A stretch of DNA of 64,000 nucleotides, from the NCBI RefSeq assembly GCF_014207985.1, contig NZ_JACHMI010000001.1, positions 11,329,001 to 11,393,000 on the forward strand, given 5' to 3'. The notes beneath the pieces were generated by a model. It ran no database searches and was not told the DNA's origin. It saw only the letters and a list, made by a program, of their open reading frames with translations. The first letter of the stretch is position 1. Each line of letters opens with the position of its first letter. The position numbers and the translations under genes were made by a program. Shown piece by piece: positions 35,782 through 50,816 of this stretch. The DNA is from Nonomuraea rubra (GTDB taxonomy: Bacteria > Actinomycetota > Actinomycetes > Streptosporangiales > Streptosporangiaceae).

Positions 35782-35939
35782 GCCGGATTCGCTCCTTGGC
35801 TCGGTACCGGGTCGAGGGCAGCATGCCTCGCCGCCCGGCCGGATTCCGTGTCCGATGACTGTCCCTGATGAGCTCTTTACCGGACGCGTAATCCGCTACG
35901 TTGTGCAAGAGATCAAGCACAAGGAGTAAGGGGGCACCG

Positions 35940-36431
35940 GTGCTGAGGGACGTCCAGGGCGATGATCTGGCGGACATGCGCCGCTGGCGCAACCATCCGC
36001 GCGTGCGCGCCGCCAGCTTCACCACGCACGAGATCACCGAGGACGAGCATCTGCGCTGGTGGGCGGCCGTCCGCACCGACCCGGGCAGACGTGTTCTGAT
36101 CTACGACCACCACGGCGTCGCCACGGGGGTGGTGACCTACTCCGACCTGACGCCGGAGAGCGCCACCTGGGGTTACTACCTCGACCTCGACACCCTGGAA
36201 CGGCAGGGCAGCCTGCTGCGGGCCTGGATCGGGCTGGAGCGGGCGGCCGTCGGGCACGCCTTCGGCCCGCTCGGGCTGAGCAGGCTGCGCGGCGAGGTGC
36301 TCGACGGCAACGAGCCCGTCATGCGGCTGCACAGGCGGTTCGGGTTCGTCGAGGTGGGCCGGCGCAAGCAGGTCGTGGACGGGGTGACGCGCGACGCCGT
36401 GACCTTCGAGATCAGGAAGGAAGAAGGATGA
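35940..36431 (+). CDS. pseH: GNAT N-acetyltransferase, PseH-like
   Basis: A 163-aa acetyltransferase predicted to N-acetylate the 4-amino group of UDP-4-amino-4,6-dideoxy-N-acetyl-altrosamine, step three of pseudaminic acid synthesis. DLADMRRWRNHPRVR and the C-terminal LHRRFGFVEVGRRKQVVDG pattern are those of RimJ/PseH-type GNAT proteins. GTG at 35940 is chosen because AAGGGGG lies 8 nt upstream; the open frame extends a little further up without a better start. Its stop overlaps the pseI ATG. The functional call depends on the surrounding pse genes. Confidence 0.85.
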   Translation: MLRDVQGDDLADMRRWRNHPRVRAASFTTHEITEDEHLRWWAAVRTDPGRRVLIYDHHGVATGVVTYSDLTPESATWGYYLDLDTLERQGSLLRAWIGLERAAVGHAFGPLGLSRLRGEVLDGNEPVMRLHRRFGFVEVGRRKQVVDGVTRDAVTFEIRKEEG

Positions 36432-37471
36432 TCTCCATCGGGGGACGGGCCATCGGGCCGGGGCATCCGCCGTTCGTCGTGGCCGAGCTGTCGGGCAACC
36501 ACAACGGCAGCCTGGAGCGGGCGCTGGCCATCGTGGACGCGGTGGCCGACGCGGGGGCGCACGCGCTGAAGCTGCAGACGTACACGCCCGACACGCTGAC
36601 CATCGACTGCGACGCCCCGCCGTTCCGGGTGGGCGACGAGCACGAGTTGTGGGGCGGGGAGAGCCTCTACCGGCTCTTCGAGCGGGCGCACACGCCGTGG
36701 GCGTGGCACGAGCCGATCTTCGAGCGGGCGCGGGAGCGGGGGCTGGTCGCGTTCTCGGCGCCGTTCGATCCCACGGCGGTCGAGCTGCTGGAGAAGCTGG
36801 GCGCGCCGGCGTACAAGATCGCGTCTTCGGAGATCGTGGACCTGCCGCTGATCCGGCTGGCCGCCGGCACGGGCAAGCCGCTGATCATCTCCACGGGAAT
36901 GGCCTCCGTCTCCGAGATCGAGGCGGCGGTGTCGGCCGCCCGCGAGGCCGGGTGCACGCGGCTCGCCGTGCTGTCGTGCACGGCGTCCTACCCGGCCTCC
37001 CCGTCGGAGAGCAACCTGCGCGCGCTGCCGCTGCTGGCCGCGATCACGGGCGAGGTCGTGGGGCTGTCCGACCACACGCCAGGGATCGGCGCCGCGCTGG
37101 CGGCGGTGGCACTGGGGGCCTGCCTGATCGAGAAGCACGTCACCCTGTCGCGGGCCGAGGGCGGGGTGGACTCGGCGTTCTCGCTGGAGCCTGCCGAGCT
37201 GGCGGCGCTGGTGGTGGAGAGCGAGCGGGCCTGGGAGTCGCTGGGCGAGGTGGCGATCGGGCCGCGGCCGTCCGAGCGGGAGGGGCTGCGCTTCCGCCGC
37301 TCGCTGTACGTGGTGCGGGACGTGTCCGCGGGCGAGCCCGTGACACCGGAGAACGTCCGGTCGATCCGTCCGGCGGGCGGTCTGCCGCCGGACGCGGCCT
37401 CGGCGGTCATGGGGCGGCGCTTCGCCCGGGATGTCGCCTTCGGCACGCCGTTGAGCTGGGATCTGATCTAG
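36428..37471 (+). CDS. pseI: Pseudaminic acid synthase
   Basis: A 347-aa NeuB-family enzyme that condenses 2,4-diacetamido-2,4,6-trideoxy-altrose with phosphoenolpyruvate to make pseudaminic acid. AELSGNHNG (19-27) is the PseI version of the motif (sialic acid synthases have AEIGxNHxG). KLQTYTPDTLT, KIASSEI, STGMAS and SDHTPG mark the TIM barrel, and residues about 280-345 (SLYVVRDVSAGEPVTPENVR) are the C-terminal SAF antifreeze-like domain that closes the active site. ATG overlaps the pseH stop. Its stop shares CTAG with that of convergent pseG. Confidence 0.93.
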   Translation: MISIGGRAIGPGHPPFVVAELSGNHNGSLERALAIVDAVADAGAHALKLQTYTPDTLTIDCDAPPFRVGDEHELWGGESLYRLFERAHTPWAWHEPIFERARERGLVAFSAPFDPTAVELLEKLGAPAYKIASSEIVDLPLIRLAAGTGKPLIISTGMASVSEIEAAVSAAREAGCTRLAVLSCTASYPASPSESNLRALPLLAAITGEVVGLSDHTPGIGAALAAVALGACLIEKHVTLSRAEGGVDSAFSLEPAELAALVVESERAWESLGEVAIGPRPSEREGLRFRRSLYVVRDVSAGEPVTPENVRSIRPAGGLPPDAASAVMGRRFARDVAFGTPLSWDLI

Positions 37472-38448
37472 CAGAGCCCGAGCAGCGCGTCAGCGACCCG
37501 CTCGCGGCCCCTGCCGTCCACCAGGCCGCTGCCCCGCCGGCCGTGTTCCTCGCGGGCGGCGGGGTCGGCGAGCAGGCGGGCCAGCAGGCCGGTCGCCGCC
37601 GGGTCCGCCGCGCGCCCGAGCCCGGCCGCCGCCCCCCTGCCCACCAGCTCCTCGTAGCCGATGAGCTGGTTGTCCGCCACCCACGTCAACGCCGTCGGGA
37701 CGCCCAGGTAGAGCAGCTCCCAGACGGCCGACCCCGCTGCCGTGACCACCAGGTCGGCCGCCGCCATCAGCTCCGGCAGCCGGTCCGTCGGCGGGATCAC
37801 GGTGATCGGCCCGGCCGCCTCGAACGGCTCGGGGCTGACGACCGTGCCGAGGAAGGGCCTGCCGGTCGCGCTGAGCGCCCGCGCCCACGCCGGGGCGACG
37901 CCGCCGCTGTCCGTGCCGCCGAAGAAGCACAGCACCCTGGGCACCGCGTTCCCGCCGGGGACCGCCCTGCTACGCCGGCGCACGCTGTCGCGCAGCAACG
38001 CGTACCGGGCTCCGGCCAGCCGCTCGGCGGGCAGCGGGAAGGGCCGCCGCTCGGCGCCGAGGTTCTGGTCGAGGTAGAGGTCGGCCTCCTGGCCCAGCGG
38101 GTCGCCGTCGACCAGGGCCAGCACCGCGAAGCGGGCGTCCCGCAGCGCCGCCCCGGTCCCGGCGGGCAGGTCGTAGGAGTCGAGCACCACGGCGTCCAGG
38201 CGCAGCTCGCAGGCCAGCGCGGCCAGCCTGGCGGGCTCGCGCGGCGCGGGCACCAGCGGGAGCCCGCGCTCGCGGAGCTGCGCCCGCGCCCACGCCGAGC
38301 CGCACACCTCGCCGAGGAAGAACACCTCGGCGCCCCGCGCGCACAGCTCCTCGGCCAGGGCCACGCAGCGCACCAGGTGCCCGACCCCGCTCTTGACCCC
38401 GGCATCGCAGCGGAAGCCCACCCGCGCCGGGCGTGCCACGCCGCTCAC
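37468..38448 (-). CDS. pseG: UDP-2,4-diacetamido-altropyranose hydrolase
   Basis: A 326-aa GT-B-like hydrolase that removes UDP to free 2,4-diacetamido-2,4,6-trideoxy-L-altrose before the PseI step. Opening RVGFRCDAGVKSGVGHLVRC matches the PseG/SpsG N-terminus (glycine-rich loop and catalytic His in GVGH), and VVTAAGSAVWELLYLGVPT is the UDP-binding C-terminal motif. GTG at 38448 overlaps the cytidylyltransferase stop (GTGA), so the two are coupled. A much longer open frame upstream is antisense noise over pseF. Confidence 0.9.
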   Translation of the reverse strand: MSGVARPARVGFRCDAGVKSGVGHLVRCVALAEELCARGAEVFFLGEVCGSAWARAQLRERGLPLVPAPREPARLAALACELRLDAVVLDSYDLPAGTGAALRDARFAVLALVDGDPLGQEADLYLDQNLGAERRPFPLPAERLAGARYALLRDSVRRRSRAVPGGNAVPRVLCFFGGTDSGGVAPAWARALSATGRPFLGTVVSPEPFEAAGPITVIPPTDRLPELMAAADLVVTAAGSAVWELLYLGVPTALTWVADNQLIGYEELVGRGAAAGLGRAADPAATGLLARLLADPAAREEHGRRGSGLVDGRGRERVADALLGLC

Positions 38449-39173
38449 GCGTCCTGCAGGGCCTTCTGCCGCACGTGCGCGTTGAGCCCGCACACCTCGG
38501 GGCGCTCGCGCAGCCAGCCCACCAGGGTCCTGACCGGCACGCAGCGGTCGCCCAGCTCGGACACCACCGCCGAGATCAGCCGCCAGTCGTCCTCGGTGTC
38601 GAGCGTGACCCGCAGGTCGTCGGCGGCGGGCCGGTATGCGAGCCCGAGCAGCCGCGTGTCGCCCGGGTGCTCGTAGAGGTAGGAGGTGACGTGGGTGCGG
38701 TGGTAGCCGGTGGCCTCGGCGTCGGCGCGGGCGAAGGCGGCCCGGCTCGCGAGCTCCACGTCGATCCCGCGCGGCAGCGTGCGCGCCAGGCTCGTGCTCA
38801 GGTAGCCGAGCCCCGGCACGGCGCGGAAGACCAGCGCCGCCTCCCTGATCACCTCCGGGTCCAGCAGCGGGCAGTCGGCGGTGAACCGCATGACGGCGTC
38901 CCACCGCCGGCCCTCCAGCGCCTGCGCGAACCGGGTCAGCACGTCGTCGACGGGCCCCCGGTGGCAGGCCACGCCCAGCCGGTGGCACTCGGCGACGACC
39001 GCGTCGTCGGCCGGCTCCGTCGTGGTGGCCACGACGAGGTCGTCCAGCGCTCCCGCCTCCCGCGCGGCGCGGACCACCCAGCCCAGCACGGAGCGGCCAC
39101 CCAGCTCCCGCAGCACCTTTCCGGGTAGCCGGGTTGAGCCCATCCGGGCCTGAATAATTCCGACAATACGCAC
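38445..39173 (-). CDS. pseF: SpsF-type cytidylyltransferase (PseF role)
   Basis: A 242-aa nucleotidyltransferase predicted to activate pseudaminic acid with CTP. The N-terminal loop IIQARMGSTRLPGKVL is the SpsF/spore-coat version rather than the IPARxGSKR form of canonical PseF and NeuA, so the assignment rests on family plus the complete set of neighbours (Bacillus sps clusters use the same type). TADCPLLDPEV and STSLARTLPRGIDVE follow. Divergent from pseB across about 100 nt that must hold both promoters. Confidence 0.83.
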   Translation of the reverse strand: MRIVGIIQARMGSTRLPGKVLRELGGRSVLGWVVRAAREAGALDDLVVATTTEPADDAVVAECHRLGVACHRGPVDDVLTRFAQALEGRRWDAVMRFTADCPLLDPEVIREAALVFRAVPGLGYLSTSLARTLPRGIDVELASRAAFARADAEATGYHRTHVTSYLYEHPGDTRLLGLAYRPAADDLRVTLDTEDDWRLISAVVSELGDRCVPVRTLVGWLRERPEVCGLNAHVRQKALQDA

Positions 39174-39276: not shown

Positions 39277-40254
39277 GTGAGCATTCTCAGTGGATCGTCG
39301 ATTCTGATCACCGGAGGAACGGGGTCCTTCGGCAAGGCGTTCATCCGTCACGCACTCGACTCGCTCGCGGTCCGCCGCCTGGTGGTCTTCTCCCGCGACG
39401 AGCTCAAGCAGTACGAGACCAGGCAGCTCTTCGGCGACGACGAACGGCTGCGCTGGTTCATCGGCGACATCCGCGACCGCGACCGGCTCACCCGCGCCAT
39501 GCACGGCGTCGACCACGTCGTGCACGCCGCCGCGCTCAAGCAGGTCGACACCGCCGAGTACAACCCGTTCGAGTACGTCCGCACCAACGTGGCAGGCTCG
39601 CAGAACGTCGTCGAGGCCGCGATCGACTGCGGCGTGCGCAGGGTCGTCGCGCTCTCCACCGACAAGGCGTCCAGCCCGATCAACCTCTACGGCGCCACGA
39701 AGCTGGTCGCCGACAAGCTGTTCGTCTCGGCCAACCACTACGCCGCCGCCCACGAGACCCGCTTCTCGGTGGTCCGCTACGGCAACGTGGTCGGCAGCAG
39801 GGGCTCGGTGATCCCGCTGTTCCAGCGGCTGGCCCAGCAGGGCGGCAGCCTGCCGATCACCGACAAGCGCATGACCAGGTTCTGGATCACGCTGGAGCAG
39901 GCGGTCAGGTTCGTGGTCGACTCCTTCGACCTCATGCAGGGCGGCGAGCTGTACGTGCCGCGCATCCCCAGCATGCGCATCACCGACCTGGCCGAGGCGC
40001 TGGCCCCCAGCAGCCCGGTCTACGAGATCGGCGTCCGGCCGGGCGAGAAGCTGCACGAGGAGATGATCGGCCCCGACGACGGCCGCAGGACACTCCGGCT
40101 GGAAGACCGCTACGTCCTCCAGCCCACGATCGCGACCTGGGGTTACGCGCCACCGCAGACCGGCGAGCTGCTGCCCGACGGCTTCTCCTACCGCTCCGAC
40201 ACCAACGAGCAGTGGCTGTCGGTCGACGACCTGCGCGACATGGTGGCCGGCTGA
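39277..40254 (+). CDS. pseB: UDP-GlcNAc 4,6-dehydratase (inverting)
   Basis: A 325-aa short-chain dehydrogenase starting the pathway: it dehydrates UDP-GlcNAc at C4-C6 with C5 inversion. GGTGSFGK (13-20) binds NADP, ALSTDKASSPINLYGATK (125-142) holds the FlaA1/PseB hallmark STDKA with catalytic Asp-Lys-Tyr residues, and RYGNVVGSRGSVIPLF follows. Soluble, without the membrane helices of CapD/PglF relatives, as for PseB. GTG at 39277 has AGGGGG about 5 nt upstream. The stop overlaps the pseC ATG (TGATG). Confidence 0.93.
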   Translation: MSILSGSSILITGGTGSFGKAFIRHALDSLAVRRLVVFSRDELKQYETRQLFGDDERLRWFIGDIRDRDRLTRAMHGVDHVVHAAALKQVDTAEYNPFEYVRTNVAGSQNVVEAAIDCGVRRVVALSTDKASSPINLYGATKLVADKLFVSANHYAAAHETRFSVVRYGNVVGSRGSVIPLFQRLAQQGGSLPITDKRMTRFWITLEQAVRFVVDSFDLMQGGELYVPRIPSMRITDLAEALAPSSPVYEIGVRPGEKLHEEMIGPDDGRRTLRLEDRYVLQPTIATWGYAPPQTGELLPDGFSYRSDTNEQWLSVDDLRDMVAG

Positions 40255-41378
40255 TGCTGCCCTACGGCCGGCAGTCGATCGCGGAGTCCGACGTCGAGGC
40301 GGTCGCCGAGGTGCTGCGCGGCGACTGGCTGACGACCGGCCCCGCGGTCGGCCGGTTCGAGGCGGAGCTGGCCCGCTGGACGGGCGGCGTGCCATGCGTG
40401 TCGGTCACGTCGGGCACCGCGGCGCTGCACGTCGCCTACGTGGCGGCCGGGGTCGGAGCGGGCGACGAGGTGGTCACCTCGCCGCTGACGTTCGTGGCCA
40501 CGGCCGCCACGGCCGCCCTCCTCGGCGCCCGCGTGCGCTTCGCCGACGTGCGTCCCGACACCGGCAACCTCGACCCCGACGCCGCCGCCGCGCTGGTCAC
40601 CGCCAGGACCCGGGTGATCACGGCCGTCGACTACGCCGGCCATCCCGCCGACTACGACGAGCTGCGGCAGGTCGCCGGCGAGGCCGGGGCCGTGCTCGTG
40701 GCCGACGCCGCGCACTCGATCGGGTCGGCGTACAAGGACCGGCCGGTGGGCTCGCTGGCCGACCTGACCACGTTCTCGTTCTTCCCCACCAAGACCGTGA
40801 CGACGGCGGAGGGCGGCGCCGTGGCGGCGGCCGACCCCGCGCTGCTGCGGCGGGCCGCCCGGTTCAGGAACCACGGCCTGGTCAGGGAGCCCGCCGAGCA
40901 GCGCCATCCCGGCGAGGGCGGCTGGCACCAGGAGGTGCACGAGTTCGGGCTCAACTACCGGCTGCCCGACGTGCTGTGCGCGCTCGGCGTCAGCCAGCTG
41001 CGCAGGCTGGAGCGCTTCCGCGAGCGGCGGGCCGAGCTGGTCGAGCGGTACCACACGATGTTGTCCGGCGTGCCGGGGCTGACGCTGCCGGCCCAGCGCG
41101 CGTACGTGCGGCCGAGCTGGCACCTCTACCCCGTCAGGATCGGTGACGGGCGGCGGCGCGAGGTGTACGAGCGCATGCGTGCCTCCGGCATCGGCGTGCA
41201 GGTCAACTACGTGCCCGCGTACTGGCACCCGGTGTTCGAGGACCTCGGCTACCGGCGCGGCCTGTGCCCCGTGGCCGAGGCGTACTACGCCGAGGAGCTG
41301 TCGCTGCCGCTGTTCCCCGGCCTGACCGACGCCCAGCAGGAGCACGTCGCGGAGACGCTGACCGGCATCCTCCGGTAG
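40254..41378 (+). CDS. pseC: UDP-4-keto sugar aminotransferase PseC
   Basis: A 374-aa PLP enzyme of the DegT/DnrJ/EryC1 family that aminates C4 of the PseB product. VTSGTAALHVAY, SPLTFVATA, VADAAHSIGS (D151) and FFPTKTVTTAEGG with Schiff-base Lys180 are all in place. Translation is coupled to pseB by a 1-nt overlap. Its stop abuts the stop of the convergent 630-aa glycosyltransferase (TAGCTA). Confidence 0.93.
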   Translation: MLPYGRQSIAESDVEAVAEVLRGDWLTTGPAVGRFEAELARWTGGVPCVSVTSGTAALHVAYVAAGVGAGDEVVTSPLTFVATAATAALLGARVRFADVRPDTGNLDPDAAAALVTARTRVITAVDYAGHPADYDELRQVAGEAGAVLVADAAHSIGSAYKDRPVGSLADLTTFSFFPTKTVTTAEGGAVAAADPALLRRAARFRNHGLVREPAEQRHPGEGGWHQEVHEFGLNYRLPDVLCALGVSQLRRLERFRERRAELVERYHTMLSGVPGLTLPAQRAYVRPSWHLYPVRIGDGRRREVYERMRASGIGVQVNYVPAYWHPVFEDLGYRRGLCPVAEAYYAEELSLPLFPGLTDAQQEHVAETLTGILR

Positions 41379-43298: not shown

Positions 43299-44924
43299 TC
43301 AGCCGGACAGCAGGCGGATGACGCGGCGGGCGACCTTGCGGGGGCGGGCCAGGCGGCGGGAGAGGCGGTAGCCGAGCGTCCTGCGGTAGGCGGTGGCCTT
43401 GCGCTGGGTCCTGCGCAGCTTGGCCTTGGCCCGCACCAGCTCGCGCTCGCGGTAGGAGAGCTTGGTCTCCAGGCGGGAGATCCTGGCCAGGGCGGCGGTG
43501 AGCTGGTCGGCCAGGCGGTCGCGGGCCGCCAGCAGGTCGCGGTACGTCGGGGCGTGCTCGGCCAGCTCGGCGGGCTGGCCCAGCTCGGCGTCCAGCTTGC
43601 GGGCCCGGTCGAGGTCGCCCGCGTCGCACGGCCGCCCGGCCATGCCGCACAGGGTCAGCGTGAGCTGGTCGGCCTCCAGCGGCCACGGCCACGGATGGTG
43701 GTGCCCCGCCGCCAGCAGCCTGACCGCGAACCGCCACAGGATCCTGCACAGCACGACCCTCGGCCCCGGCGGCACGGCCGGACCCGCCGGCGGGTTGACC
43801 GCGGCGAACCGCTCGCCGTCGTAGACCAGGCTGTCGGTCGCCGCCGACACGTCGCCGCCCGACTCCAGCCACTCGGCCAGCCGGCCGAGCAGGTCGCGCA
43901 CGGTCCTGACGTCCTCGCGGGCGCACGCCTCGACGAGGATCTCCTCGACCACCCGGCCCGCCGGGATCGGCCGCTCCTGACCGCCGGGCAGGCGCCTGGT
44001 GCCGGCGGCGGTGAGCTCGTACAGGGCAGGACCCTCCTCGATGAGGCCCAGCGGCAGCTCCACCGACTGCGGCCGGCCGTCGGGGCGGGGCGTTTTGGTG
44101 GCCACGACCAGCCACAGCGGGGCCAGCTCCTCACCCAGGCGGTGCCTGAACACCAGCCGGGTCAGCCGCAGCGGGTCGGCGACCAGCATCCGGTCGCCGT
44201 CCCTGGCGCTCAGCGGGAACGTCAGCGCCTCGGGCAGCTCGAACGCCAGCGCCTCCCTGGACAGCAGCGACCGCGGCGCCCGCCGGTCCGGATAGGCCGC
44301 GTAGCAGCGCTGCAGGCTCAGCCCCGCCGCTTCGAGCCCCAGGTCGAGGGCCTCGGGGCCGCTGGGGTAGCTCGGGTCGAAGCCGTGCGGCGCCCACTGG
44401 TCGTCGGCGCACTCCCGGTCGGCCGGTCTGGCCTCGATGAAGCGGTCGACGCCCAGGTCGTTGCGTACGCCGAGGACCAGCCTGCCGCCGGGCGCGACGA
44501 GGTCGGCCAGCGCGCCCAGCGACTCGTCCCAGGCCGCGGCCGGCGCCTCGGCCGAGTGGGTGCGCAGCAGCCCGTCCATCGCCAGCACCAGGTCGTACGG
44601 CTCCTCTGCGTCCAGCAGCTCCAGCCGGCCGCAGAACACCGCCAGCTCGGGGTGCCGCGCCCCCAGCGCGCAGGCGTCAGGGTAGGAGCGCAGCAGCACG
44701 GCCGCCGACGGGGCGCGCGCGACCACGTCGTCCACCAGCGTCCGCGGATGCGGCCCGACCAGCAGCACCCGCCCGTCCTCCGGGATCGTCCGCCTGATCA
44801 GCTCCAGGGCCGCGCCCCGCCACTCGGTGACGCCGCCCATCGCGGCCAGGTCCGACCACAGCAGCATCTCCCCGCCGATCAACCGGACGTTCCCGGGCGC
44901 CTCCTCGCTCGTCGGGGCCTTCAT
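43299..44924 (-). CDS. Methyltransferase-like protein with C-terminal coiled coil
   Basis: A 541-aa protein. Residues about 40-210 look like a SAM-dependent methyltransferase-like Rossmann domain (GRVLLVGPHPRTLVDDVV, YDLVLAMDGLLR, LADLVAPGGRLVLGVRNDLG), though the glycine loop GPHPR is atypical. The middle is unassigned; residues about 450-510 form a basic coiled coil (LADQLTAALARISRLETKLS) ending in an Arg-rich tail. ATG at 44924 overlaps the upstream stop (ATGA). Similar class-I methyltransferase plus coiled-coil proteins cap or size polysaccharide chains (compare WbdD), a possible but unproven role here. Confidence 0.75.
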   Translation of the reverse strand: MKAPTSEEAPGNVRLIGGEMLLWSDLAAMGGVTEWRGAALELIRRTIPEDGRVLLVGPHPRTLVDDVVARAPSAAVLLRSYPDACALGARHPELAVFCGRLELLDAEEPYDLVLAMDGLLRTHSAEAPAAAWDESLGALADLVAPGGRLVLGVRNDLGVDRFIEARPADRECADDQWAPHGFDPSYPSGPEALDLGLEAAGLSLQRCYAAYPDRRAPRSLLSREALAFELPEALTFPLSARDGDRMLVADPLRLTRLVFRHRLGEELAPLWLVVATKTPRPDGRPQSVELPLGLIEEGPALYELTAAGTRRLPGGQERPIPAGRVVEEILVEACAREDVRTVRDLLGRLAEWLESGGDVSAATDSLVYDGERFAAVNPPAGPAVPPGPRVVLCRILWRFAVRLLAAGHHHPWPWPLEADQLTLTLCGMAGRPCDAGDLDRARKLDAELGQPAELAEHAPTYRDLLAARDRLADQLTAALARISRLETKLSYRERELVRAKAKLRRTQRKATAYRRTLGYRLSRRLARPRKVARRVIRLLSG

Positions 44925-45757
44925 GCGGTGCGCACCCGCTTCCATCCGAACATCTGCCGTAGCTCCTCCGGTGTCGCCTGATACTCGAATCCCAGCTCGC
45001 GCCGCGCCGCCTCCGCCGCCAGCCCGGGATCGACGTGCGTTCCGTGCAGCTCGGGCCAGAGCCGCTTGCGGCGGGCGGTGCCGCCGTACTCGGGACGTTC
45101 GTCGTCGAACTGCATCGGATCGCCGTACACGGCCACCTCGCAGCCCACCGAGGCGCCGTAGAACAGCGCGCTGCCGAGCCGGTTGGAGGCCACCCTGCGG
45201 TGGCGCCGCAACTCGACCAGCTGCTTGCGCAGGAAGTCGCGGCCCTTTCCCTCCCAGCGGGATCCACGCTCGCCATGGCAGATGACCCGGAAACCCCTCG
45301 ATTCATACGAACGCCGAATGTCCGGATTTGCGTATTCAAGCCAATAAAGGCAGACAGTTACCGGGCCAATCTCGACATCTCGGATTTCGTCGGCAAGTCG
45401 GGCGTGGTCGCCGCTGACGGAATGTTTTTCCCAGCCATGAAAGGGATACCAGATCGTACCGTTGCGATCGGGCACCACACCCCGGTCCGGCTCCAGGTAA
45501 AGGAGGTAGATCCAGGGCGCGCCGATCAGATAGTGGCCCCTGCGGCCCATCGACCAGCCCCTGCGCCGCAGCACGTCCGACCAGACGAAACGGGGATATC
45601 CCGGGCTGCACCAGTGGTCATTCGGGGGAAATCCATGCAGGTAGTTCCATCCGTGCTGGAGGAAACCCTGGATTCGTTTCGGAGCCTCGTCCGGCAGGCC
45701 ACAGTACGCGCCGAGTATGCGGGAGTGCCCGTACCAGTGATTGGATTCGTCCATCAT
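44921..45757 (-). CDS. Unrecognised 278-aa protein in the pse locus
   Basis: I do not recognise this gene with confidence. It is rich in Trp, Tyr, His and Arg, has no signal peptide or membrane helix, and shows GHYLIGAPWIYLLYL near residue 75, TVCLYWLEYANPDIRR, and SNRLGSALFYGASVGCEVAVYGDP late in the protein, the last resembling the donor-side helix-strand of GT-B glycosyltransferases such as polysialyl- and capsule transferases. That would make it a candidate CMP-pseudaminate transferase. Part of the gene (about 45290-45600) has visibly lower GC than its surroundings, a sign of transfer. First in an operon with the methyltransferase-like and GT2 genes; start could also be ATG 45754. Confidence 0.6.
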   Translation of the reverse strand: MMDESNHWYGHSRILGAYCGLPDEAPKRIQGFLQHGWNYLHGFPPNDHWCSPGYPRFVWSDVLRRRGWSMGRRGHYLIGAPWIYLLYLEPDRGVVPDRNGTIWYPFHGWEKHSVSGDHARLADEIRDVEIGPVTVCLYWLEYANPDIRRSYESRGFRVICHGERGSRWEGKGRDFLRKQLVELRRHRRVASNRLGSALFYGASVGCEVAVYGDPMQFDDERPEYGGTARRKRLWPELHGTHVDPGLAAEAARRELGFEYQATPEELRQMFGWKRVRTA

Positions 45758-45918: not shown

Positions 45919-46167
45919 ATGAGTCATCTCGATCGCCTGCGGGCCGTCTTCCGCAAGGCGCTCAACCTTCCGCCCGACACCGACGTCGACGGCCTCGAAT
46001 ACCGCGCCATCCCGCAGTGGGACTCCCTCGCGCACATGGCGCTGATCGCGGCGATGGAGGACGAGTTCTCCGTCATGATCGACACCGACGAAATGATCGA
46101 CATGAGCTCGTTCGCCAAGGCGGCCGAGCTGCTGGAGAAGCATGGCATCGGCGCCGCCGCCCTCTGA
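45919..46167 (+). CDS. Acyl carrier protein
   Basis: An 82-aa carrier with the phosphopantetheine site QWDSLAHMAL (Ser36) and an acidic helix after it (EDEFSVMIDTDEM). It holds an acyl group as a thioester for the enzymes encoded next to it. It is distant from the housekeeping AcpP motif DSL(D/S)xVEL, as in dedicated pathway carriers. ATG at 45919 is preferred over GTG at 45913. The next gene begins 26 nt before its stop. A TACACT -10-like element lies at 45880-45885. Confidence 0.92.
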   Translation: MSHLDRLRAVFRKALNLPPDTDVDGLEYRAIPQWDSLAHMALIAAMEDEFSVMIDTDEMIDMSSFAKAAELLEKHGIGAAAL

Positions 46168-46924
46168 CGACACCCGCACCGCTGCCCCCTGTCCCAGGGT
46201 CGCGCTGGTCACGGGCTCGACGAGGGGCATCGGCCGGGCCGTGGCCGGCACGCTGGCGGCCTCCGGCCACACGGTCGTGGTGCACGGGCGCGACGAGGAA
46301 CGGGCCGCGAAGGCTGCGGCCGAGATCGCGGCCGAGACCGGCGGCGTGACCGACTCGGTGGCCGGCGACGTGGGCGACCTGGCCCAGGTGTCCGCCATGA
46401 TGCGGCGGATCTACGAGCGGCACGGGCTGCTCGACGGGCTCGTCGTCAACGCGGGCGTGCACGAGGCGGGCCTGCTCGGCATGACGGGGCAGGCCGCCAT
46501 CGACCGCCTCTTCCAGGTCAACGCCGTCGGCGCCACGCACACCCTGCAGGCCGCGCTCCGGCTGCTGCGCAGGGGCACGGCACCGGCCGTGGTGCTGGTC
46601 TCCTCGGTCATGGGGCGCGCGGGCGGGGCCGGGCAGGCGGTCTACTCGGCGACGAAGGCGGCGGTGCTCGGGCTCACCATGGCCGCGGCCAAGGAGCTCG
46701 GGCCGTCCGGGGTCAGGGTCAACGCCGTGGCCCCCGGCTACATCCGTACCGACCTGCTCGCCACGCTCGGCGACGACGCCCGCGCGGGCGTGGTCGCGGC
46801 GACCCCGCTCGGCCGGCTCGGCGAGCCCGGCGACGTGGCGGCGGCCGTGGCGTTCCTGCTGTCGCCGCAGGCCGGGTTCGTGACCGGCCAGGTGCTCGGC
46901 GTGGACGGCGGGCTGGTGCCGTGA
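46142..46924 (+). CDS. Short-chain dehydrogenase, FabG-like
   Basis: A 260-aa NAD(P)H oxidoreductase predicted to reduce a 3-oxoacyl group on the neighbouring carrier protein. TGSTRGIG (24-31) binds cofactor, NAG at 103-105, catalytic S155, Y168 and K172 (YSATK), and the C-terminal RVNAVAPGYIRTDLL and GVDGGLVP are FabG-like. Overlaps the carrier gene by 26 nt in another frame. No ketosynthase accompanies it, so the oxoacyl or carbonyl substrate must come from elsewhere. Confidence 0.9.
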   Translation: MASAPPPSDDTRTAAPCPRVALVTGSTRGIGRAVAGTLAASGHTVVVHGRDEERAAKAAAEIAAETGGVTDSVAGDVGDLAQVSAMMRRIYERHGLLDGLVVNAGVHEAGLLGMTGQAAIDRLFQVNAVGATHTLQAALRLLRRGTAPAVVLVSSVMGRAGGAGQAVYSATKAAVLGLTMAAAKELGPSGVRVNAVAPGYIRTDLLATLGDDARAGVVAATPLGRLGEPGDVAAAVAFLLSPQAGFVTGQVLGVDGGLVP

Positions 46925-48231
46925 TGTTCCCGCACCCGCAGGCCCAGCTCATCCCCTCCGGTGCCGAGGAGGGCATCGGCGGCGACAAGCTGGCCCACTA
47001 CATCAAGCGCGCGGCGGAAAACCTCGACGGGCTGCGGCCCGGGCCGCTGTTCTGCGCCATGCGCAACACGATGGCCTCCGTGTTCTGCTACCTCGGCGCC
47101 TGGCACGCCGGGCGGCCGATCGCGCTGCTCGACCCCGACCTGCCGGCCGCCACGCTGGCCGAGCTGTCGGAGCGGTTCAGGCCGGCCGCGCTGCTCGGGT
47201 TCACCAACCCGCTGGAGGACCCGCCGCCGCCCCGCACCGACGTGCCCGACCCGCATCCCGACCTCGGCCTGCTCCTGGCCACGTCGGGCTCCACGGGCAA
47301 CCCCAGGCTGGTCCGCCTGTCGCGCCAGGCCGTGCTGTCCAACGCCCAGGCCATCGCCACGGCCCTGTCCATCGGGCCCGGCGAGATCGCGCCCACCAGC
47401 CTGCCGCTGCACTACAGCTACGGCCTGTCGGTGCTCAACAGCCACCTCATCGCGGGCGGCGCCGTCGTGCTCACGGAGGCCGGGCTGCTGGAGCGCTCGT
47501 TCTGGGCGGATCTGCACGCCTACGACTGCACGTCGCTGGCCGCGGTCCCGTACCAGTACTCGATGATGCGCCGCATCCGCTTCGACCGCTCGAAGTACCC
47601 CAGGCTCACCACGCTCACGCAGGCCGGCGGGCGGCTCGCGCCCGAGCTGATCGAGGAGTTCGCCGCGCAGGTGGAGCGGTTCTACGTGATGTACGGGCAG
47701 ACGGAGGCCACCGCCCGCATGGCCGTGCTGCCTCCCGACCGGCTCGCCGACAAGCTCGGCACGGTCGGCCTCGCCCTGCCCGGCGGCTCGCTGGAGATCG
47801 CCGACGGCGAGATCGTCTACCGCGGGCCCAACGTCATGATGGGCTACGCCGACAACGCCGAGGACCTGGCCAGGGGCGACGACCTCGGCGGGGTGCTGCG
47901 CACGGGCGACCTCGGGGCACTCGACCCCGAGGGGTTCCTGGAGGTCACCGGGCGGCTCAAGCGCATCGCCAAGGTCTTCGGCACCCGGGTCAACCTCGAC
48001 GACGTCGAACGGCTGCTGCGCGGCCTCGGCCCCGTGGCGGTGACCAGCGGCGACGACCGGGTGACGGTCTGGACGGAAGCGCTCGATCCCGCCGCCCAGG
48101 TGCGCATGGCGCGGCGGCTGGGGGCCGAGCTGCGCCTGCACTGGAGCGGGTTCGACATGCGGCACATCGATCACCTGCCGCTGCTGGCGACGGGCAAGAT
48201 CGACTATCGCACGCTGGAGTCGCTCACATGA
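46924..48231 (+). CDS. AMP-forming acyl/aryl ligase
   Basis: A 435-aa ANL-family adenylating enzyme, shorter than usual (about 500-550). A3 loop ATSGSTGNPRLVRLS begins at 119, A5 is MYGQTEATARMA, A7 is RTGDLGAL and A8 GRLKRIAKVFGTRVN; the catalytic C-terminal lysine is K425 in ATGKIDY. It likely activates a carboxylic acid and loads the carrier protein. ATG at 46924 overlaps the reductase stop by 1 nt. Its last codons begin a tandem repeat that runs into the spacer. Confidence 0.87.
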   Translation: MFPHPQAQLIPSGAEEGIGGDKLAHYIKRAAENLDGLRPGPLFCAMRNTMASVFCYLGAWHAGRPIALLDPDLPAATLAELSERFRPAALLGFTNPLEDPPPPRTDVPDPHPDLGLLLATSGSTGNPRLVRLSRQAVLSNAQAIATALSIGPGEIAPTSLPLHYSYGLSVLNSHLIAGGAVVLTEAGLLERSFWADLHAYDCTSLAAVPYQYSMMRRIRFDRSKYPRLTTLTQAGGRLAPELIEEFAAQVERFYVMYGQTEATARMAVLPPDRLADKLGTVGLALPGGSLEIADGEIVYRGPNVMMGYADNAEDLARGDDLGGVLRTGDLGALDPEGFLEVTGRLKRIAKVFGTRVNLDDVERLLRGLGPVAVTSGDDRVTVWTEALDPAAQVRMARRLGAELRLHWSGFDMRHIDHLPLLATGKIDYRTLESLT

Positions 48232-48362
48232 GCGGGTGCCGCAGTCTGGAGTCGCATGCATGAGCGCCTTTCGCACGATGGAGTGCATGCGTGAGCGCCT
48301 TCGCACGATGGAGTGCATGCGTGAGCGCCTCTCGCACGATGGGGTCGCTCGGATAAGCGTCG
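48208..48362. repeat. About 30-bp tandem repeat across the ligase stop codon
   Basis: Five units start at 48208, 48240, 48272, 48302 and 48333, each opening CGCACGATGGAGT or a variant. The first lies inside the ligase gene and includes its ATGAGCG stop region; units three and four are nearly identical (30-31 bp) and each ends in GTGAGCGCC. The array is thus a serial duplication of the stop/start junction and separates the ligase from luxE by 150 nt. Confidence 0.85.
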
Positions 48363-48381
48363 CGGCCGGTGGTGAGCGCGC

Positions 48382-49401
48382 GTGTTCACGCTGAGCGCGC
48401 CGGAGCGGGAGGCCGTGCTGGTGCCGGAGCTGGCGGCGCTGACCGAGCGGCACCGCGCGTCGTGCCCGCCGTACCGCAGGATCCTCGACGCCATCGGCGC
48501 GGCGCCGCCCTACGAGCGGCTGGCCGAGCTGCCGTGGCTGCCCGTGCGGCTGTTCAAGACGCACGAGCTGCGCAGCGTGCCGGAGGAGCAGGTGTTCCGG
48601 GTGCTGACCTCCAGCGGCACGACCGGGCAGCGGCCCAGCCGCATCCACCTCGACCGGGAGGCCGCGGCGGCGCAGACCCGCATGCTGGCCGCCACGATCC
48701 GGGCCGTGCTCGGCGAGCGGCGGCTGCCCATGCTGGTGGTCGACACCCGCTCGGTCGTCCGCGACCCGACGCTGAGCGCCCGCGGCGCCGGCGTGCTCGG
48801 CATGATGAACTTCGGCAGGGACCACACGTTCGTGCTCGACGAGCAGGGGCGGGTGGACGCGGAGGCGGTCAAGGGGTTCCTGGCGCGGCACGGGGGCGAG
48901 CGGTTCCTCGTCTTCGGGTTCACGTTCATGGTCTGGCTGCACCTGCGCGGGCTGGGCGCCGACCTGTCGCAGGGCGTGCTGATCCACTCCGGCGGGTGGA
49001 AGCGGCTGGCCGAGCAGGCGGTCGACAACGCCGAGTTCCGGCGGCGGCTGGCGGCCGAGTGCGGGCTGAGCAGGGTGCACAACTTCTACGGCATGGTCGA
49101 GCAGATCGGCACCGTGTTCCTGGAGGGGCCCGAGGGTGACGGGCTCTACTGCCCCGACTTCGCCGACGTCGTGATCCGCGACCCCGAGACCTGGCAGGAG
49201 GCGCCGGCCGGGGTGCCGGGGATCATCGAGGTGGTCAGCACGCTGCCGACGTCGTATCCGGGGCATGTGTTGCTGACCGAGGATCTGGGTGTGGTGCGCG
49301 GGGTGGATGACGGGAGCTGGCCGGGCAAGCGGTTCGAGGTCCTGGGGAGACTGCCGCGGGCCGAGGCGCGGGGGTGCAGCGACACCATGGGGCAGGGCTG
49401 A
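48382..49401 (+). CDS. LuxE-like acyl-protein synthetase
   Basis: A 339-aa member of the LuxE family. LuxE activates a fatty acid with ATP and passes the acyl group to LuxC. TSSGTTGQRPSRIHL (77-91) is the family adenylate loop; FGRDHTFVLDEQGRVD, LIHSGGWKRLAEQAVD and NFYGMVEQIGTVF are highly typical. GTG at 48382 opens the gene, right after the tandem repeat, so there is no obvious ribosome site. Stop overlaps the luxC ATG by 1 nt. Symbol is left blank because no light-producing role is implied. Confidence 0.9.
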   Translation: MFTLSAPEREAVLVPELAALTERHRASCPPYRRILDAIGAAPPYERLAELPWLPVRLFKTHELRSVPEEQVFRVLTSSGTTGQRPSRIHLDREAAAAQTRMLAATIRAVLGERRLPMLVVDTRSVVRDPTLSARGAGVLGMMNFGRDHTFVLDEQGRVDAEAVKGFLARHGGERFLVFGFTFMVWLHLRGLGADLSQGVLIHSGGWKRLAEQAVDNAEFRRRLAAECGLSRVHNFYGMVEQIGTVFLEGPEGDGLYCPDFADVVIRDPETWQEAPAGVPGIIEVVSTLPTSYPGHVLLTEDLGVVRGVDDGSWPGKRFEVLGRLPRAEARGCSDTMGQG

Positions 49402-50816
49402 TGCCTGACGACCGCACCGCCATCGCACGCGACACGTCCGGCACCGCGCACGAATCGTCCGGCACCACACGCGACACGTCTCCCACCGCAAGCGACATGC
49501 CTGCCGTCGCCCGCGACTCATCGGGTGCCGCGCTTGGTGCATCCGCGATCGTGCGTGACGACGCGTCCGGCACGGCGCGTGACGACGCGTCTGCCGTGGA
49601 CGTCAGGTTTCCCGCCGGGGGGACCGTGCCGGTCGAGGTGCTGCTCGGCCAGTTCGGTGGCGAGCCCGAGGGTGGCGGCGGGCTGCGGGTGGGTGATGAG
49701 CGGGTCAGGGAGTTCCTCGCGGCCTTCGGGCGGCGGCTGCTGCGGCCCGCGCTGGCGCGCAGGCATCCCGAGCTGGGCTCGCTCGGTTTCTTCCTGCGGC
49801 CCAGCGAGCTGGCCCGCACGGTGGCAGGGCTCGGCGGCGAGCACGTACGCGTCCCGCGCGGCCTGATCTTCCACGTCCCGCCCGCGAACGTCGACACCGT
49901 CTTCGTCTACTCCTGGGCCCTGTCGGCCCTGATGGGCAACCGCAACGTCGTACGCCTGTCGCACCGCTCCGGCACCGTCGCCGAGACCATCCTGGAGACG
50001 CTGCACGAGGCGCTGGCCGACGCCGACCCCGTGATCGCCGCCACGCAGCGTGTCATCTCCTACGGCCGCTCCGGCACCGTCACCGCCGCGCTGTCGGCGG
50101 CCTGCGACCTGCGGGTGGTGTGGGGCGGCGACGGCGCCGTACGGGAGATCCGGCGGCACGCGCTGGCCCCGCACGCCCGCGACCTGACCTTCCCCGACCG
50201 TTCGTCGTTCGCGGTGGTGCGGGCGGCGGCGTGGTTGTGCGCGCCCCGGGCGGCGCGGGTGACGGTCGCCGAGGGGTTCGTCAACGACACCTACTGGTTC
50301 GACCAGGCCGCCTGCTCCTCCCCCAGGACCGTGTTCTGGGTGGGGTCCGAGGGTGACTGCGACGCGGCGCGGGCCGACTTCACCGACCACGTGGCGCGGG
50401 TGGTGACCGTACGCGGCTGGGGGGTGGACGCGGCGATGGCCGTGGAGAAGCGGGTCTCCACCTACGGGCTGGCCGCCGACGGGCTGGCGGAGAGCGTGGA
50501 GTTCCACGGGAACGCGCTGGCCGTCGTCCACCTGTCGGCCGCGGCGGCGGCGCCCCGGCGGTGGCTGGGGGCCGGGACGTTCGCGCACGCCAGGCTGGGG
50601 GCGCTGGGTGAGCTGGTGCCCCTGGTGGAGCGGCGGGATCAGACGATGACGCACTTCGGGTTCGGCCAGGACGAGCTGGAGGAGCTGGCCAGGGGGCTGG
50701 CGGGGCGGGGCGTCGATCGGATGGTGCCGGTCGGTAGCGCGTTGAGCTTCCATCGGGTGTGGGACGGGGTGGATCTGCCGGCCGAGTTCACGCGCCTGGT
50801 GACCGTTATTCGATGA
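49401..50816 (+). CDS. LuxC-like acyl-CoA reductase
   Basis: A 471-aa NADPH-dependent reductase turning an activated acyl group into an aldehyde. RGLIFHVPPANVDTVFVYSW is the LuxC signature; the acyl-accepting cysteine is C305 in DQAACSSPRTVFWVG. The first 65 residues are a Thr/Ser/Asp/Ala low-complexity stretch with repeats of ARDTSGTA-like and GTARDDAS, absent from normal LuxC; homology begins near VDVRFPAGG (67). ATG at 49401 is set by the TGATG coupling with luxE. No luciferase (luxAB) genes are in the window. Confidence 0.88.
   Translation: MPDDRTAIARDTSGTAHESSGTTRDTSPTASDMPAVARDSSGAALGASAIVRDDASGTARDDASAVDVRFPAGGTVPVEVLLGQFGGEPEGGGGLRVGDERVREFLAAFGRRLLRPALARRHPELGSLGFFLRPSELARTVAGLGGEHVRVPRGLIFHVPPANVDTVFVYSWALSALMGNRNVVRLSHRSGTVAETILETLHEALADADPVIAATQRVISYGRSGTVTAALSAACDLRVVWGGDGAVREIRRHALAPHARDLTFPDRSSFAVVRAAAWLCAPRAARVTVAEGFVNDTYWFDQAACSSPRTVFWVGSEGDCDAARADFTDHVARVVTVRGWGVDAAMAVEKRVSTYGLAADGLAESVEFHGNALAVVHLSAAAAAPRRWLGAGTFAHARLGALGELVPLVERRDQTMTHFGFGQDELEELARGLAGRGVDRMVPVGSALSFHRVWDGVDLPAEFTRLVTVIR

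Follow-up and report, generated by a model that had tools for sequence, protein, structure and literature searches.

A LuxC-LuxE cassette beside a pseudaminic acid pathway in Nonomuraea: a probable source of hydroxyacyl groups for amino-sugar N-acylation

The closest described relative of the genes reported here lies in the group II polar-flagellin glycosylation island of Aeromonas, in which, according to the accessible part of the report, orf1 encodes an acyl carrier protein (ACP), orf2 a reductase and orf3 an adenosine monophosphate (AMP) synthetase, together with luxE and luxC (PMC7874193). The same five functions appear in the available text on the flagellin islands of Enterobacteriaceae (PMC4875605), and both papers, in those same portions, propose fatty-acid or fatty-aldehyde synthesis leading to a "liposugar" (PMC7874193, PMC4875605). 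In Vibrio cholerae O1, a five-gene biosynthetic block is described, in the accessible passages, for the malate-derived tetronate that N-acylates perosamine (PMC3441752, PMC10746206). The window analysed here is a stretch of 64,000 nucleotides (positions 11329001-11393000 of the contig) in the 12.9 Mb genome of Nonomuraea rubra, and the element in question is a cassette encoding an ACP, a short-chain dehydrogenase/reductase (SDR), an AMP-forming ligase, LuxE and LuxC, located within 10 kb of a complete pseudaminic acid (Pse) pathway.

The cassette probably converts a small carboxylic acid to a hydroxyacyl-ACP and so supplies the N-acyltransferase of an amino-sugar pathway. The observed basis of this reading consists of the gene content, the intact catalytic residues, the conserved gene order, and the association with aminotransferase and N-acyltransferase genes. 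The first-pass annotation of the window had singled out the cassette as the best candidate for an undescribed system, a description that has to be withdrawn: the five-gene cassette beside pse genes is already published, with the same genes in the same order, in the accessible text on Aeromonas (PMC7874193). The N-acylation reading is what is new here, since the cassette itself was known; no paper assigning N-acylation to it was found in the open-access PMC literature, as far as the available text of those papers extends.

All five products scored above their Pfam cut-offs (Table 1), in agreement with the first-pass annotation, and the acyl-cysteine C305 of LuxC was confirmed. The genes had been called tightly coupled, which holds for three of the four junctions, where the frames overlap (ACP/SDR, SDR/ligase and LuxE/LuxC, the last through a TGATG shared by stop and start), and not for the ligase-LuxE junction, where a gap of 150 bases (48232-48381) is filled with short repeats. 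The ATG starts of the ACP (45919) and LuxC (49401) genes were read off the sequence. LuxE was assigned by its PF04443 score, its adenosine triphosphate (ATP) motif and a C-terminal acyl-cysteine, and LuxC by its PF05893 score and acyl-cysteine. LuxE matched chain E of PDB entry 7xc6 (4.8e-12) with C332 aligned to its cysteine, and the LuxC profile matched chain A, which is LuxC (1.5e-9), with C305 likewise aligned. A genome-wide search with PF05893 returned the cassette LuxC as the sole strong match (84 bits), the three others scoring 26.2, 23 and 19.9 bits. The closest named relatives of the cassette LuxE were from Nonomuraea, and the best solved relatives of the ligase were oxalate-CoA ligases.

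The catalytic residues were preserved across the related sequences: the phosphopantetheine serine motif in 81/81 ACPs, the Ser/Tyr/Lys pattern in 82/82 SDRs, the ATP motif in 83/83 ligases, and the acyl-cysteine in 86/86 LuxE and 85/85 LuxC proteins, with the LuxE ATP motif kept in 84 of 86 (exceptions L088 and L089). The LuxC N-terminus of the window (49401-49600) forms a repetitive low-complexity extension, which is longer in locus L005 and which the Deinococcus and Rhizobium proteins lack.

Table 1. Cassette and Pse pathway genes in the window, with the model matches by which they were assigned.
Feature	Position	Strand	Evidence
ACP (phosphopantetheine Ser in WDSL)	45919..46167	+	PF00550 22.9 bits, cut-off 20.8
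SDR reductase, FabG-like	46142..46924	+	PF13561 1.6e-57, 195.3 bits, cut-off 27; Ser/Tyr/Lys pattern present
AMP-forming ligase, 436 aa	46921..48231	+	PF00501 1e-35, 123.7 bits, cut-off 29.9
LuxE-family acyl-protein synthetase, ATP motif SSGTTG, acyl-Cys C332	48382..49401	+	PF04443 1.1e-42, 146.7 bits, cut-off 24.9
LuxC-family acyl reductase, 471 aa, acyl-Cys C305	49401..50816	+	PF05893 5.9e-27, 95 bits, cut-off 21
PseH-like N-acyltransferase (start uncertain)	35925..36431	+	TIGR03585 87.4 bits, under cut-off 93.1
PseI pseudaminic acid synthase (start inferred)	36428..37471	+	TIGR03586 442 bits, cut-off 340
PseG nucleotide hydrolase	37468..38448	-	TIGR03590 118.9 bits, under cut-off 153.6
PseF-like CMP transferase	38445..39173	-	PF02348 99.6 bits; TIGR03584 only 26.8, cut-off 205.7
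PseB UDP-GlcNAc 4,6-dehydratase	39277..40254	+	TIGR03589 493 bits, cut-off 408
PseC aminotransferase	40254..41378	+	TIGR03588 413 bits, under cut-off 423.5; frame backed by GC3 (third-position GC content) 0.98

The surface-sugar neighbours named in the first-pass annotation were borne out, and they include a complete Pse pathway at 35.9-41.4 kb that had gone unnamed. All six functions (PseB, PseC, PseH, PseG, PseI and PseF) were present: PseB and PseI exceeded their equivalog cut-offs; PseC, PseH and PseG fell under theirs, yet these models were their best matches; and PseF was assigned by Pfam only. Two minus-strand open reading frames overlapping the pathway were dismissed, one (40188-41345) as a shadow of PseC and the other (37468-38988) as PseG with an over-long start.

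Related loci were taken as the best 80 of 394 LuxE relatives in GTDB contigs; they were drawn with two LuxE peptide patterns and form an uneven sample, biased to close relatives. The order ACP-SDR-ligase-LuxE-LuxC was complete in 76 of the 80, the other four lying on contigs of <5 kb. A Deinococcus plasmid kept the full order, with proteins 39-56% identical to those of the window; on a Ponticoccus plasmid the cassette was present with LuxC displaced, and on a Rhizobium plasmid a glycosyltransferase gene was inserted in the cassette and the SDR had moved.

The sugar-gene context was compared for the 64 loci of at least 19 kb (the other 16 of the 80 being shorter), using a panel that combined Pse proteins and acyltransferases with a 3-dehydrogenase and two further sugar aminotransferases, with 20 random 20-kb segments from five Nonomuraea genomes only as controls. 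Random placement of the cassette relative to glycan loci, raised in the first-pass annotation, is not what was found: an amino-sugar aminotransferase was matched in 64/64 loci, and 0/20 random segments matched any panel protein. Thirty-eight of the loci were of the Pse type, 22 had a 3-dehydrogenase-like gene with a DegT aminotransferase (hereafter Amycolatopsis-type), and four (L043, L045, L067 and L068) were under both thresholds. In Actinoplanes-type loci, PseB adjoined the ACP gene, divergently, in 28/30, and one genome, in which the ligase matches the Actinoplanes utahensis enzyme exactly, had PseG, F, C, B, the cassette, PseI and PseH inside about 24 kb. In L045, L067 and L070 (Dactylosporangium and Allorhizocola), PseH was divergent from the ACP gene at a distance of about 100-150 bases, and PseB and PseI were not within the fetched flanks.

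Acyltransferase genes of several families accompanied the cassette. PseH was found at most 15 kb from it in 12/12 genomes searched whole, one of which has a second PseH elsewhere; these distances were taken from coordinates, and a shared contig was confirmed where PseH fell outside the fetched locus. Among Amycolatopsis-type loci, an LpxA-like acyltransferase gene lay directly upstream of the ACP gene in 18/22. Two of the LpxA-like proteins (L058 and L043) scored 174-177 bits against the model for acyl-ACP-dependent UDP-GlcNAc acyltransferases (cut-off 226), and the gene was the sole strong match in 12 genomes picked for having it, three of which had a second match below 90 bits. LpxA uses acyl-ACP and, in some bacteria, N-acylates UDP-GlcNAc3N. 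Elsewhere, a NeuD/PglB/VioB-family acyltransferase adjoined LuxC in Deinococcus (185.5 bits, cut-off 160.8), a weaker NeuD match (153.5 bits) stood beside the ACP gene in Rhizobium, and a weak PseH match followed LuxE in Ponticoccus (69.7 bits, cut-off 93.1).

Within Nonomuraea, the cassette was detected in 44/54 genomes and was lacking in 10/54. PseI above the model cut-off was found in 44/44 cassette genomes versus 1/10 cassette-less ones, the sole exception being a genome that is 63% complete, and in 39 genomes the cassette and PseI were on one contig, 11.7-16.0 kb apart. The Fisher value for this co-occurrence (1.9e-9) treats species as independent, which they are not. A second NeuB-family gene (7906728-7907435 of the contig, in an open frame of about 700 codons) was present in 52/54 Nonomuraea genomes by a hand count, independently of the cassette; as a guess, it may encode a Kdn-type synthase that serves a different wall polymer.

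In the class-wide survey, a LuxE of the cassette kind (E 1e-60) was found in at least 2 of 296 genomes, both Nonomuraea, a possible undercount given that seven first-look candidates were scored per listed genome. A close relative of the ligase was found in at least 97 of 300 Micromonosporaceae genomes, with six candidates scored per listed genome. The patchiness seen across the class, together with the general habit of glycan islands to swap genes, would suit a cassette that merely hitch-hikes in a variable polysaccharide island with no functional link to Pse. The association with amino-sugar pathways is repeated in unrelated locus types, and we regard hitch-hiking as quite improbable.

Luciferase genes had been reported absent in the first-pass annotation, and no match to the luciferase family PF00296 was detected in the window; all 58 matches of the genome were elsewhere, the nearest about 216 kb away. 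The cassette is thus not accompanied by luxAB in the window, as a bioluminescence operon would be. A cryptic remnant of a luxCDABE light operon, a reading that the LuxC and LuxE families alone would prompt, is improbable in the extreme and was dismissed on gene context: the window holds no luxAB-like gene, the ACP, SDR and ligase are not lux genes, and sugar loci in other phyla contain the cassette as well. The reported absence of a ketosynthase also stood, with none found among 30 open reading frames at 27.8-64 kb, at least two of which are shadow or misframed, in a scan that was not all-frame.

A route that would join these functions can be proposed, for which we infer the order of the reactions, the role of acyl-ACP as donor, the identity of the acyl group and its cell-wall destination. 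LuxE would activate one carboxyl group with ATP and hold the acyl on Cys332; LuxC would accept it on Cys305 and reduce it to the aldehyde; and the SDR would reduce the aldehyde (or an oxo group) to a hydroxyl. The ligase would then load the resulting hydroxy acid onto the ACP. Two ATP-using activators and one ACP are sensible in such a scheme because one would activate the acid for reduction and the other would load the product. With the UDP-sugar from PseB and PseC as acceptor, PseH would take the acyl from the ACP and attach it at the 4-amino group; after PseG and PseI this amino group would become N-7 of Pse, and CMP-Pse would then go into a surface polymer. The putative acyltransferase would be PseH in Pse loci, the LpxA-like protein in Amycolatopsis-type loci, and a NeuD- or PseH-like protein in the three other genera.

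As a guess, the acyl group would be a C4 hydroxy- or dihydroxybutanoyl derived from succinate or malate. The oxalate-CoA ligase relatives of the ligase may fit small polar acids, a weak indication from sequence likeness. The wall of A. utahensis reportedly contains a teichulosonic acid with di-N-acyl pseudaminic acid, perhaps bearing 3,4-dihydroxybutanoyl. In the literature excerpts available, Pse bears 7-N-glyceroyl or 5-N-lactoyl groups in other bacteria, and 3-amino sugars of marine bacteria carry 4-hydroxybutyryl or malyl amides (PMC3210612).

The first-pass annotation had left the product open among an acyl, aldehyde or alcohol unit for a sugar or lipid carrier. A place in sugar biosynthesis and an acyl product agree with the data; an aldehyde, an alcohol or a lipid target fits less well because N-acyltransferase genes accompany the cassette, in one locus type from an acyl-ACP-using family. 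If LuxC instead acted on an ACP thioester, it would yield a free aldehyde, and there would be no explanation for the acyltransferase. These points bear on the published proposal, in which LuxC and LuxE would reduce long-chain acyl groups to an aldehyde or alcohol that serves as a lipid moiety in the glycan or in its carrier. The activity of the two families, the matches to the LuxC-LuxE structure 7xc6 and the accessible wording of the Aeromonas and Enterobacteriaceae papers (PMC7874193, PMC4875605) speak for it. Against it, both proteins fell far under the long-chain equivalog cut-offs (LuxC, NF052251, 32.9 against 750; LuxE, NF052244, 64.4 against 550), and an aldehyde product would not account for the extra ligase and ACP or for the accompanying N-acyltransferases, so that we consider it unlikely.

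A further alternative is that the acyl-ACP is indeed made and serves O-acylation or another sugar of the polymer in place of the Pse amine. The locus also encodes several glycosyltransferases, a methyltransferase, a sulfotransferase and a deacetylase, and PseH could still take acetyl-CoA; the aminotransferase is, however, the constant neighbour of the cassette, and its usual N-acyltransferase is the nearest known acyl acceptor enzyme. This alternative, too, seems improbable, on a par with the lipid proposal.

Several observations weigh against hydroxyacyl-ACP supply for N-acylation. LuxC and LuxE are familiar from long-chain acids, and PseH usually takes acetyl-CoA. The co-occurrence in Nonomuraea comes from a single genus and is inflated by common descent. 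A panel acyltransferase was inside the fetched flanks in only 33/64 loci; among Pse-type loci PseH was seen there in 9/38 and was unseen in 29/38, five of which were searched genome-wide and had PseH just past the flanks (5/5). In the remaining Amycolatopsis-type loci, the LpxA-like gene was 8.8 kb off in L063, the only match in L083 was 26% identical and 13 kb distant, and no LpxA-like gene was matched within L066 and L072. The one 3-dehydrogenase-like protein tested reached 145 bits against a UDP-GlcNAc 3-dehydrogenase cut-off of 450, which makes GlcNAc3N a guess as the sugar of these loci. Finally, LuxE and LuxC were also found without an ACP, ligase or sugar genes: pairs on Pantoea and Streptomyces plasmids came without an ACP or ligase match, and the Priestia LuxE was located in another kind of cluster. 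The claim is therefore confined to the five-gene cassette and does not extend to LuxC and LuxE in general.

A wider version can be advanced tentatively, with the case for and against it close to balanced: the cassette, which occurs in Actinomycetota, Deinococcota and Proteobacteria and is published from Aeromonas and enterobacterial flagellar islands, may be a general module for the N-acylation of nucleotide amino sugars, in which a small di- or hydroxycarboxylic acid becomes the hydroxyacyl-ACP, and may provide the N-7 acyl of cell-wall Pse in Nonomuraea and Actinoplanes. If N-acylation is the function, the 'lux' genes of surface-glycan loci, so far annotated for bioluminescence or fatty acids, would gain one, LuxC/LuxE chemistry would reach beyond long-chain fatty acids and take in small polar acids, and strains bearing unusual N-acyl groups on their surface sugars would be predicted. 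Such groups can affect recognition of the cell.

The remaining region of the window encodes glycosyltransferases, a sulfotransferase, a CDP-alcohol transferase, a methyltransferase, a polysaccharide deacetylase and a glycerophosphotransferase-domain protein. Two proteins (43299-44945 and 44921-45757, both on the minus strand) had no Pfam or NCBIfam match; relatives of both stand next to pse genes and the cassette in Micromonosporaceae (31-34% and 52-56% identity, respectively) and occur twice in the A. utahensis-type locus, and we would guess that they are candidate nonulosonic-acid transferases. In L087 (Rhizobium beringeri plasmid pRlX3), the rearranged cassette stands beside a transketolase pair, a GMC oxidoreductase and FabZ, which suggests that the acyl or sugar unit there is longer or of another kind. 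L048, labelled Rhodococcus rhodnii NRRL B-16535, nearly matches L047 (Kibdelosporangium aridum) in gene layout and equals it in LuxE identity, and its assembly is possibly mislabelled or contaminated.

Compared with known systems, the cassette shares with the LuxC-LuxE reductase of luminous bacteria the two families and both acyl-cysteines, and differs from it in the absence of luxAB from the window, in its additional ACP, SDR and ligase, and in scoring below the long-chain equivalog cut-offs. Amycolatopsis-type loci, in combining the cassette with 3-dehydrogenase-like, DegT and LpxA-like genes, resemble the UDP-GlcNAc3N pathway of GnnA, GnnB and LpxA; their NCBIfam matches are, however, under the model cut-offs, and these Gram-positive hosts are not known to have lipid A. 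The tetronate genes of V. cholerae O1, as Morona and colleagues reportedly described them in 1995, include an ACP, a ligase and a LuxC-like reductase, with a make-up and order unlike those of the cassette. In the accessible descriptions, VC0248-VC0252 is likewise a five-gene block by which a hydroxy acid N-acylates an amino sugar, the acceptor there being perosamine; its tetronate acylation resembles the proposed logic of the cassette and may serve as a precedent, by functional analogy and not by sequence. Closest of all is the Aeromonas island, which has flagellin as its target and is likened here by published functions and order, not by protein sequences: in the accessible text it has the five functions in the order ACP, reductase, AMP ligase, LuxE and LuxC, downstream of pseH, and the window, with its own pse genes, has the same (PMC7874193).

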